The position numbers and the translations under genes were made by a program. A DNA stretch of 59,504 nucleotides from an uncultured SAR86 cluster bacterium (lineage in GTDB: Bacteria > Pseudomonadota > Gammaproteobacteria > Magnimaribacterales > Magnimaribacteraceae): assembly GCA_902532015.1 (NCBI GenBank), contig CACAGI010000006.1, positions 1 through 59,504 of the forward strand, read 5' to 3'. A model generated the notes under the pieces. It had not been told where the DNA came from. It saw only the letters and a program-made list of their open reading frames with translations, and searched no databases. Each line of letters starts with the position of its first letter. Positions within the stretch are counted from its first letter, which is position 1. Positions 53,470-59,504 of this stretch are shown one piece after another.

Positions 53470-54684
53470 ATGGATTTTGAACACACAAAAAAGACTAAGG
53501 ACTTAATGTCAATAGTTGCAGACTTTATCAATACACACATAAGACCTGCTGAAAGCATCTACGCAGAAGAAATGGAAACTTATAGGAAGGAGGGTGATCA
53601 GTGGCGTGTTCCCAAGATCCTCTATGAATTAAAAGAAAAGGCCAAAGGAGCTGGTCTTTGGAACTTTTCTTTAACTGGTGATCTTGGATATGGTTTAACA
53701 AATTTAGAGTTTGCACCGCTGGCAGAGATGATGGGTGTTGGATGGACTTCAGAGGTTTTTAATTCTTCAGCACCTGATGCTGGCAACATGGAAGTTTTAG
53801 ATAAATACGGAACTGAAGAGCAAAAAGATAAGTGGTTAAAACCTCTTTTGGATGGATCAATGAGATCAGCTTTTGCTATGACAGAGCCCAATGTAGCCTC
53901 TTCGGATGCAACTAACATTTCAAGCACTATAGTTGCCGATGGGGATGAATACGTAATAAATGGAGAAAAGTGGTGGACATCTGGTTATGGAAGACCAGAT
54001 TGTGGTTTTATGATTTTTATGGGCGTTTCAAATCCAGACGCACCTAAACATCAAAGACAATCTCAGATAATCGTCCCTAGAGAAACTAAAGGGATAGAGC
54101 TAAAAAGAATGTTAACGGTATATGGAGCGGATCATGCTCCTAGCGGGCATGCTCATTTAATATTTAAAAATGTTCGCGTGCCTAAAGAGAATATGATTCT
54201 AGGTGAAGGCAGAGGCTTCGAGATAGCTCAAGGACGCCTGGGTCCAGGCAGGATACATCATTGTATGAAGATTATTGGAGCAGCGGAAACGGCTCTAAAG
54301 TTATTGTGCGAAAGAGCTTCAACAAGAGTTGCGTTTGGAAAAGCAATAGCTGAGTTAGGAGGGAATTACGATGTCATTGCTAAATGCAGAATAGAAATCG
54401 AAATGTGTAGATTATTGACACTTAAAGCCGCTTATATGATGGATACTCTAGGAAACAAAAAAGCTAAGAGTGAAATAGCTCAACCCAAAGTTGAAGTGCC
54501 TAGTATGGCAGTTAGAATTATTGAAAGGGCTGTGCAAATTCACGGTGGTGCTGGTGTTTCACAAGATACACCTCTAGCCAGTCTTTATAGTTCTATTCGA
54601 TATTTAAGAATAGGAGATGGTCCTGATGAGGTTCATCTGAGAACTATTGCCAAAGATGAACTTTCTAAATATGAAGGATTGTAA
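53470..54684 (+). CDS. Acyl-CoA dehydrogenase, ACAD10/ACAD11 C-domain type
   Basis: 404 residues. It begins with a helix ([20 protein letters not shown]) typical of this group, has the FAD signature [13 protein letters not shown], the [20 protein letters not shown] segment and [14 protein letters not shown] near the C-terminus. It closely resembles the dehydrogenase half of ACAD10/ACAD11. In those proteins a kinase half phosphorylates a 4-hydroxyacyl-CoA that the dehydrogenase half then dephosphorylates and desaturates. A matching kinase is at 11255-12307 but 41 kb away. Confidence 0.88.
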
Positions 54685-54750
54685 TAAAGATATAATCTTA
54701 TTCCTTTCCTTAATAGACTTTTTGGATTAAGAATATAAGATTACTTAATA

Positions 54751-54829
54751 TGTGAAGGGGTGGCTTTTGCCTGAGATCTGAAATGAGACCCTTTGAACCT
54801 GATCCATATAATAATGGCGGAGGAATTAC
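54751..54829 (+). promoter_or_regulatory. TPP (THI-box) riboswitch containing the receptor gene's ribosome binding site
   Basis: The conserved thi-box sequence is present in order: GGGGTGG (54757-54763), CTGAGA (54771-54776), ACCC and TTTGAACCTGATC (54788-54803), then ATAATGGCGGAGG (54810-54823). The closing P1 stem can form between TGTGAA (54751) and TTACA (54826-54830) with one bulge. The Shine-Dalgarno GGAGG (54819-54823) lies inside the last conserved strand, six bases before the ATG, so TPP binding should block translation directly, with no separate expression platform. A plausible -10 (TATAAG, 54734-54739) precedes it. Confidence 0.95.
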
Positions 54830-56938
54830 ATGCTAAATCTGAATAAATTTTCTTTTTTTATATCTATTTCAATATGCTTACTTTGCAGCAATTCTTTTGG
54901 AGATATCATTGAGGAGGTTATTGTATTAGGTGATTGGAGGCAAGTATCTCAAAACAAAGAAGACGCCAGTATAGTTCTATTAAATTCAGAGGATATTAAT
55001 AATCAGAGCATCAATCATTTTGAAGGTCTTACATACCTAGTGCCCAATTTAAATTTTGCTGCAAGCGATTCAAGAGCTAGATATTTTCAAATAAGAGGCA
55101 TTGGAGAGAGATCTGGATACCAAGGAACTCCAAATTCATCAGTAGGCTTTTTAATTGATGATATAGATTATTCAGGTCAAGGAGGAATAGCTACAACGTT
55201 TGATATAGAGCAAGTAGAAATACATAGAGGCCCCCAAGGTTCTAGGATGGGTGCAAATGCTTTGGCTGGCTTAATTTATATAAAAACCAAAGATCCTACC
55301 GAAGAATTCGAATCTTATAGCACACTTTCTTTAGGCGATTTTGGTAGAGAAGGTTTAGGACTTGCCATTGGTGGCCCTGTAGAGAATCTAGAATCTATTC
55401 AGTATAGATTAGCTATTCATAAGCATAAAGAAGATGGGTTTAGAAAAAACCGGTATTTGAAAACATCAAATACATCAAGAAAAGATGAGCTGACAAGTAG
55501 ATTTAAGGTCAATTGGAAAATAAATAATGATACTTTGATTAAGTTGTTGCTTTCTAGAGTAGATCTTAAAGACCCTGCTGATATTTGGACTCTTGATGGA
55601 AGCTTGAACACTCTCTCTGATAGGCCAGGTATGGATTCTCAAAAGACAGATTCCTTTGGTTTAAATCTTATAAGCCAGCAAGAAGGTTTTGATTTTCAAA
55701 GTTTGACTAGCACAACGAATACAGATGTAATTTTTAGCTATGATGCTGATTGGGGCAATTCAGAATCATGGCACCCCTATGTCTACAACTATTTCTCGGA
55801 AACTTATAGAGAAAGAGAAACTTTAGGCCAAGAATTTAGATTTTTATCTAATGAAAAATCTTTATTAACTCATAAGAGGCTTGAATGGGTTTTGGGAATT
55901 AACTATTTTAAAACAAAAGAATTTAACTCAAAAAATGATGACGGAACTTATGGAGAGCCTAATGATCCTTACGGACCTTATTTTAGTCAGTCTTCCTCTC
56001 AAAGTTTTTACCAATCAGAAAATGTCTCATTTTTTGGAAATATAGATTTTTCTTTTACAGAAACTCTAAAGCTTTCTCTAGGATTCAGAAGAGAGGATTG
56101 GAAGGCAAATTACAATGACAGTTTTGGAGAAAGGTTTAGCCCCTCAAATATGATGAACGGAGGAAAACTTTCTTTAATAAAAAGTACTAAAAATACTAAT
56201 TTATTTGCAAGTATTGCTAGGGGGTATAAACAAGGAGGATTCAACCTAGCATTAGGATTAGGTTCCGATGCATCTAATGACAATATTTTTTATGATCCTG
56301 AATATCTTTTCAATTATGAGGTTGGATTTAAAACCATATCCTTGGATTCTCGAGTCAATTTCTCTGCTGTCATGTTTTATTCAGATAGAAAAGATCAACA
56401 AGTACTTATCTCCACCCAAGTGGATCCTTCAGATCCTAATACATTTTCTTTTATTACCAAAAATGCTGCTGAAGGACTTAATTACGGATTAGAGTTAAGC
56501 ATTGATTACCAAATTAATGATGCCTTTAATGTATATTCCAGAATAGGATTACTGGAAACGGAAATAAAAAATTGGCAGTCTAGACCAGACCTTGATGGTA
56601 GAGAACAAGCGCATGCTCCCAAAACTAGTTATTCTGTCGGTTTGGAGTGGAGACCTATTAAAAGCTCTTTTGTTAGGCTTGACGTAGTTGGTAAAAGCAG
56701 CTTCTATTATTCAGACTCTCATGCAAATAAATCAAGATCTTATTCGCTCACCAATCTAAGCACAGGATATCAATGGGATAGGCTTGAATTTTCTTTTTGG
56801 GTAAGGAATGCTTTTGATAAATACTACTCAGTTAGAGGATTTTATTTTGGTAATGAGCCTCCAAATTTTGAAGATACGCTATATGAAAGGCAAGGAGATC
56901 CTAGGCATTTTGGAATATCTCTTAATTATGAATTTTAA
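54830..56938 (+). CDS. TonB-dependent outer-membrane receptor (riboswitch-controlled, thiamin-related)
   Basis: 702 residues. A signal peptide (about 1-24) is followed by the TonB box EEVIVLG, a plug domain (about 40-160, with RGIGER and QVEIHRGPQGS) and a 22-strand-type barrel ending in a terminal aromatic (NYEF). The riboswitch upstream and a PnuC-family transporter 12 bases downstream indicate uptake of thiamin, a phosphate ester, or a precursor such as HMP across the outer membrane. Which of these is imported cannot be told from sequence. Confidence 0.92.
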   Translation: MLNLNKFSFFISISICLLCSNSFGDIIEEVIVLGDWRQVSQNKEDASIVLLNSEDINNQSINHFEGLTYLVPNLNFAASDSRARYFQIRGIGERSGYQGTPNSSVGFLIDDIDYSGQGGIATTFDIEQVEIHRGPQGSRMGANALAGLIYIKTKDPTEEFESYSTLSLGDFGREGLGLAIGGPVENLESIQYRLAIHKHKEDGFRKNRYLKTSNTSRKDELTSRFKVNWKINNDTLIKLLLSRVDLKDPADIWTLDGSLNTLSDRPGMDSQKTDSFGLNLISQQEGFDFQSLTSTTNTDVIFSYDADWGNSESWHPYVYNYFSETYRERETLGQEFRFLSNEKSLLTHKRLEWVLGINYFKTKEFNSKNDDGTYGEPNDPYGPYFSQSSSQSFYQSENVSFFGNIDFSFTETLKLSLGFRREDWKANYNDSFGERFSPSNMMNGGKLSLIKSTKNTNLFASIARGYKQGGFNLALGLGSDASNDNIFYDPEYLFNYEVGFKTISLDSRVNFSAVMFYSDRKDQQVLISTQVDPSDPNTFSFITKNAAEGLNYGLELSIDYQINDAFNVYSRIGLLETEIKNWQSRPDLDGREQAHAPKTSYSVGLEWRPIKSSFVRLDVVGKSSFYYSDSHANKSRSYSLTNLSTGYQWDRLEFSFWVRNAFDKYYSVRGFYFGNEPPNFEDTLYERQGDPRHFGISLNYEF

Positions 56939-56950
56939 ATTTAAGCTGAA

Positions 56951-57520
56951 ATGGAATATATAGCAGTTTTATTGGCTATTCTCTATCTGGTACTTGCAGT
57001 TAAGCAGAATATTCTATGTTGGCTTGCAGGAATATTAAGCTCTACTCTTTATTTGTTCATTATGTTTTCAGCAGGCTTGTATATGGAGGCCAGTTTGCAA
57101 ATTTTCTATGTCGTAATGGGAGTGTATGGATGGTCCCAATGGAAATTAAACGACTCTAATTTTGTAGTCAATAATTGGAGCCCTAAGGATCATTTCAAAG
57201 CACTTACCCTAATTTTTCTTCTAACTTTCTCTTCAGGATACTTGCTCAAATTATTTACTGATGCTGCCCTGCCTTATCTAGACGCTTTGACAACTTGGGG
57301 AGCGATTGTCGCAACTTACATGGTAGCCAAAAAATTAATTGAGAATTGGATATATTGGTTTGTTATAGACTCTATTTCTATATTTCTATTTATTTCTAGA
57401 GATTTAAATTTAACTGCCTTACTTTTTGGTTTATATCTTGTAATTATCTGTTTTGGTTATAGATCATGGAGCAGGGCAAGGAAAGATATGAAGAAAAAGG
57501 CTACTGCAAACTTGCAATAG
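56951..57520 (+). CDS. pnuT: PnuC/PnuT-family vitamin transporter (thiamin type inferred)
   Basis: 189 residues with about seven membrane helices and the PnuC pattern QIFYVVMGVYGWSQW (helix 3-4 region) and NWIYWFVIDSISIFLF (C-terminal). Facilitators of this family carry nicotinamide riboside (PnuC), riboflavin or thiamin (PnuT). The TPP riboswitch makes thiamin the best guess, by context. It ends in a terminator shared with katG. Confidence 0.85.
   Translation: MEYIAVLLAILYLVLAVKQNILCWLAGILSSTLYLFIMFSAGLYMEASLQIFYVVMGVYGWSQWKLNDSNFVVNNWSPKDHFKALTLIFLLTFSSGYLLKLFTDAALPYLDALTTWGAIVATYMVAKKLIENWIYWFVIDSISIFLFISRDLNLTALLFGLYLVIICFGYRSWSRARKDMKKKATANLQ

Positions 57521-57541: not shown

Positions 57542-59504
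<1,963 letters not shown>

Follow-up and report, generated by a model that had tools for sequence, protein, structure and literature searches.

The literature already describes direct attenuation of translation by TPP aptamers, OMthi-pnuT operons under TPP control and, in SAR86, an omr1 gene adjacent to a riboswitch. For the first of these, "direct translation attenuation," Barrick and Breaker (2007) name TPP among the riboswitch classes in which it is most common (PMC2258182). In Bacteroides, OMthi and PnuT are required for growth on thiamin, and the OMthi and pnuT transcripts hardly respond to thiamin despite the adjoining TPP switches (PMC5613172); such flat transcripts are what translational control of a related operon would lead one to expect. 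B1 auxotrophy of SAR86 is described in the accessible part of a further report, which also places omr1 near a TDP riboswitch in two SAR86 metagenome clusters (PMC10881298). The locus described here shares with these clusters the lineage, the receptor class and the riboswitch; that part of the report gives proximity in the two clusters, with no embedded ribosome site, order-wide geometry or exclusion of ThiC and ThiE. For an order-wide fixed geometry with the AUG in P1, and for the ThiC/ThiE exclusion, we found no description in a limited body of open-access literature.

The window, that is, the whole stretch of 59,504 nucleotides that was analysed, belongs to an uncultured SAR86 bacterium whose assembly comprises 1.16 Mb in 45 contigs and is 66% complete. 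The original prediction had proposed a TPP riboswitch whose last conserved strand contains a GGAGG at 54819-54823, six bases before the ATG of a TonB receptor that is followed after 12 bases by a PnuC-family gene, and had offered as a check that a match to RF00059 should reach position 54829. All of this holds. Using cmscan, we find a full-length match to RF00059 (TPP riboswitch) at 54746-54842 on the forward strand (all 105 model positions; 62.0 bits, where the gathering score is 54.3; E 8.6e-10), which is the only TPP match in the window and in the whole assembly. The five-helix TPP fold is present with its conserved CUGAGA, GAACCUGA and GCGNAGG. The covariance score, together with the finding that 104 of 199 genomes from the order carry the element, rules out chance; by covariance and fold the element is a TPP riboswitch of RF00059, and it is predicted to bind TPP. 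The features of the locus are as follows.

54746-54842, forward strand: TPP riboswitch aptamer (full-length RF00059 match, cmscan)
54751-54755, forward strand: 5' strand of P1, UGUGA (covariance-model alignment; pair counts in 69 copies)
54798-54800, forward strand: 5' strand of P4, CCU, which pairs with the AGG of the ribosome site (covariance-model alignment, pair counts, fold)
54819-54823, forward strand: Shine-Dalgarno GGAGG within the aptamer, of which AGG (54821-54823) is the 3' strand of P4 (covariance-model alignment, pair counts)
54826-54830, forward strand: 3' strand of P1, UUACA, whose last base is the A of the receptor ATG (covariance-model alignment, pair counts, fold)
54830-56938, forward strand: TonB-dependent receptor of 702 aa, omr1/OMthi-like by context (PF07715, Plug, 4.8e-11; PF00593, barrel, 9.9e-32)
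56951-57520, forward strand: PnuC-family inner-membrane transporter of 189 aa, PnuT by context (PF04973, NMN_transporter, 3e-49)

Of the GGAGG, only the AGG is base-paired in the RF00059 model, in a P4 helix of three pairs. P1 has five pairs, is A/U-rich with one G-U, and extends into the start codon by one base, its A, so that the aptamer covers the AUG as well as the ribosome site. The receptor can be assigned to the Omr1/OMthi class from its plug and barrel domains and its placement after a TPP aptamer. The downstream ORF belongs to the PnuC fold family by its PF04973 match, scores 80.1 bits against TIGR01528 (cut-off 42.45) and matches the PnuC structure PDB 4qtn at 1.3e-6. Its context is linked to thiamin by the aptamer of the same operon and by the ThiC/ThiE exclusion described below; we consider it PnuT by context, with thiamin as the probable substrate. 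A peroxidase (katG-like) gene (57542-59476, reverse strand) converges on the operon 21 bases past PnuT, and the neighbor at this position differs in relatives that have a third operon gene.

The arrangement is conserved throughout the order. RF00059 matches are found in 27 of the 35 genomes of the family, and PnuT in 26 of these 27 carriers; in the copies examined across the order the element is always accompanied by the operon. There is one TPP element per carrier genome, with a single exception in the order sample (G180), which has two (G180:C6 and G180:C111), each with its own receptor and PnuT, and which may be a mixed assembly. In 69 distinct copies from the order, the first ATG after the AGG lies six bases away in 61, eight in six, nine in one and one in one. 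The fused geometry is present in 67 of the 69 copies, compared with 10 of 62 copies from elsewhere in the class, the latter drawn non-randomly from the best-scoring end of the list. Across 19 pairs of the 69-copy alignment, 98.9% of cells are paired, against 30-54% in controls with slid partners. P1 is paired in 98.3% of cells, is intact by simple register in 65 of the 69 copies, and shows a compensatory change at one pair from C-G (50 copies) to U-A (15 copies, two families); further compensatory changes occur in P3 and P5, and P4, the helix that contains the AGG, is invariant. The U that pairs with the A of the start codon is retained in 68 of 69 copies. In six copies from one genus the ATG is shifted two bases downstream and the P1 base A is unchanged, so that this pair is retained for the aptamer as well as the start codon. 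A tree of PnuT sequences (read without L121, a row with a misread frame) groups by family, with 4 label changes against a shuffled mean of 24.1, and suggests that PnuT has descended mainly vertically.

Several features argue that aptamer and expression platform are one, as the original prediction had proposed. The ribosome site lies in the conserved core, neither a terminator nor a separate sequestering hairpin was found, no competing pairing is predicted, GGAGG-6-ATG recurs over the order, and the 16S rRNA anti-Shine-Dalgarno (CCTCC) is intact in the bacterium's own genome. The AGG is fixed by the aptamer itself, a point against the model. The base preceding it is G in 68 of 69 SAR86 copies compared with 11 of 62 class copies, and U in the Rfam consensus; a G at this position costs P4 the wobble pair available to U but gives a complete GGAGG. 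Because the aptamer alone would not favor G, we infer selection for ribosome binding. Only 11 of the 42 long ORFs of the window have a Shine-Dalgarno-like motif (background 12%), so by the standard of this genome the receptor has an unusually strong site. By the same count, the covered AUG may be more important than the GGAGG.

The aptamer family, the position of the ribosome site in the conserved 3' purine-rich strand and the lack of any further expression platform are the same as in direct translation attenuation as described (PMC2258182). In SAR86, however, P1 also includes the A of the AUG, the base before the AGG is fixed as G, and the form is near-uniform over a whole order, whereas elsewhere it is the minority form. 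The view that a separate platform is usual, and that this switch is therefore unusual, survives in part: no separate platform is present here, but direct attenuation is frequent for TPP (PMC2258182), which makes the switch less unusual than implied.

Judging from comparative sequence evidence, it is very probable that in this uncultured SAR86 bacterium a TPP riboswitch acting directly on translation governs an operon for thiamin uptake. When TPP is scarce, P1 and P4 would open with sufficient frequency that the 30S subunit could bind the GGAGG and the AUG. Bound TPP would lock P4 (holding the AGG) and P1 (holding the A of the AUG) together and block initiation on the receptor, and the output of PnuT would fall too, either through translational coupling or because mRNA left untranslated decays or is terminated by Rho. 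Thiamin would cross the outer membrane via the receptor and the inner membrane via PnuT; in many relatives a ThiK-like kinase of the operon would then make thiamin phosphate, from which ThiL would make TPP. In the predicted ligand-free fold, P1 and P4 are already part of the minimum-energy structure, with the AGG unpaired at only 0.02-0.08, and no competing anti-sequestor is seen. Because the free RNA folds both helices with no competitor, control must come from the ligand stabilizing helices that would open in its absence. How large this effect is remains uncertain, chiefly owing to the closed state predicted for the free RNA. With about 80 nucleotides from P1 to AUG and dozens of natural variants, this very compact natural TPP switch would suit experiments on how an aptamer alone could control initiation.

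The distribution of thiamin synthesis genes bears on what the operon imports. The comparison covered 81 genomes of SAR86 (completeness 80% or more in nearly all), 41 with the element and 40 without it. ThiC, which the original prediction had suggested looking for together with other thi genes, is encoded in none of the 41 carriers but in 26 of the 40 other genomes; for ThiE the counts are 1 of 41 and 38 of 40. The genomes are related, so that Fisher p-values overstate the independence of these counts. The exclusion recurs inside families f1, f2 and f4, and no TPP element was detected in the thiamin-making genomes among the 81. A candidate ThiE in the window's own genome was rejected as a weak match inside a 504-aa ORF. 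The sole carrier ThiE (in G004) is a broken remnant of 49 aa with three stops. The element of the same genome (L036, G004:C47) is divergent, with its ATG one base past the GGAGG and a rebuilt P1; these oddities may mean that synthesis was lost recently or that the assembly is faulty.

The carriers also differ in how imported thiamin could be converted to the coenzyme. TPK was found in none of the 81 genomes; ThiL is above cut-off in 73 of them, and most carriers retain it. A third operon gene, overlapping PnuT, is present in G009 and in families f2 and f4 (L046:6620-7480, L108:7282-8106, L116:6966-7790 and others). It encodes a protein of 240-290 aa with an APH/choline-kinase fold, for which ThiK ranks first or second among the NCBIfam matches; at 46-68 bits against TIGR02721, which has a cut-off of 299.45, it is ThiK-like rather than certified ThiK. 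Where this gene is present, the route likely runs from thiamin through the ThiK-like kinase to ThiL. Three genera, the window's among them, have no ThiK-like gene in the operon, and none was found elsewhere in their genomes; within the window's genus (G000, G010-G014) we found neither TPK nor a recognizable thiamin kinase, and ThiL is present in G012. The TPP aptamer, TonB receptor and PnuT are the same as in the OMthi-pnuT-tnr3 operon of Bacteroidetes (PMC5613172), but the SAR86 operon lacks tnr3/TPK; many relatives have the ThiK-like kinase instead, with ThiL finishing the coenzyme, and the operon of the window's genus has neither. Moreover, the Bacteroides host still makes thiamin, whereas the SAR86 carriers do not. 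In SAR86, which is abundant in the ocean, the element goes with the loss of ThiC and ThiE and can therefore serve as a sequence marker for thiamin demand.

We considered whether the aptamer might act mainly on transcription or mRNA stability, through an intrinsic or Rho-dependent terminator, with its overlap of the ribosome site incidental. TPP switches of E. coli involve Rho as well as translation, and Rho effects would be invisible in sequence. Nevertheless, we find no terminator-like hairpin in 54600-54950 and no room for one between aptamer and ATG, given that the 3' strand of P1 ends on the ATG, and the spacing is conserved over the order, which together make this explanation improbable. 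A relic, or a constitutively closed aptamer that no longer switches, would account for the already closed free fold and for the modest score of 62.0 bits (copies of the order score 47.9-68.3 bits, and those elsewhere in the class up to 85.4). Such decay is hard to reconcile with a core that is nearly invariant in 69 distinct copies, with the compensatory changes in P1, P3 and P5 and with the constant association with the operon, and we regard it as the least probable of the alternatives. Direct control of translation by a functional aptamer is the reading we favor.

The substrate is a separate question, as the transporter pair might carry HMP, thiamin phosphate or nicotinamide riboside instead of thiamin. 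The last is suggested by the name of TIGR01528, whose PnuC cut-off the transporter exceeds, but control by a TPP riboswitch speaks against it. HMP or thiazole could not be used by carriers without ThiE, which would have nothing to join them. Thiamin phosphate would fit the window's genus, since ThiL can use it without the kinase that this genus appears to lack; the ThiK-like kinase in many relatives' operons points to the unphosphorylated form. On balance, a substrate other than thiamin is rather unlikely, and the imported compound is likely intact thiamin and not HMP. The prediction of import of thiamin or a precursor is therefore upheld for thiamin, given the exclusion of ThiC and ThiE, the third gene of relatives and the work on OMthi and PnuT (PMC5613172), and HMP as the precursor is unlikely without ThiE. 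More tentatively, SAR86 carriers, the window's genus above all, might salvage without TPK and, in that genus, without a recognizable thiamin kinase, so that either imported thiamin phosphate is used by ThiL or an unrecognized kinase acts, and the order-wide fused switch over Shine-Dalgarno and AUG might be the point of control that accompanied the loss of synthesis; we hold this to be possible but doubtful.

Fused switches also occur outside SAR86. In 10 of the 62 top-scoring copies from other orders of the class, an ATG lies 4-10 bases past the AGG; in at least two of these ten (L134 and L184) another ATG follows in frame after some 60 bases. In many other class copies the start lies some 40-120 bases further. 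The idea that a compact switch suits a streamlined genome gains some support here, as 7 of the 10 fused copies come from genomes of at most 2.0 Mb, against 9 of the other 52 (p 0.0017 by Fisher's test and 0.047 by a rank test), a weak association in a top-scoring sample in which kinship was ignored and some calls are ambiguous. A broad pattern scan listed 80 loci, 60 of them with an upstream thi core, and at 36 of these 60 the ATG begins an ORF that reaches 100 aa or more (60 aa or more if the ORF is open). The remaining loci were rejected as fused switches and attributed to chance or to another start. Among the listed loci, the fused pattern occurs in many phyla, including Neomarinimicrobiota and Bacteroidales, and in these two groups six loci (L231, L259, L260, L271, L282 and L287) combine a fused TPP aptamer and ATG with an ORF of 755-821 aa, the size of a TonB receptor.
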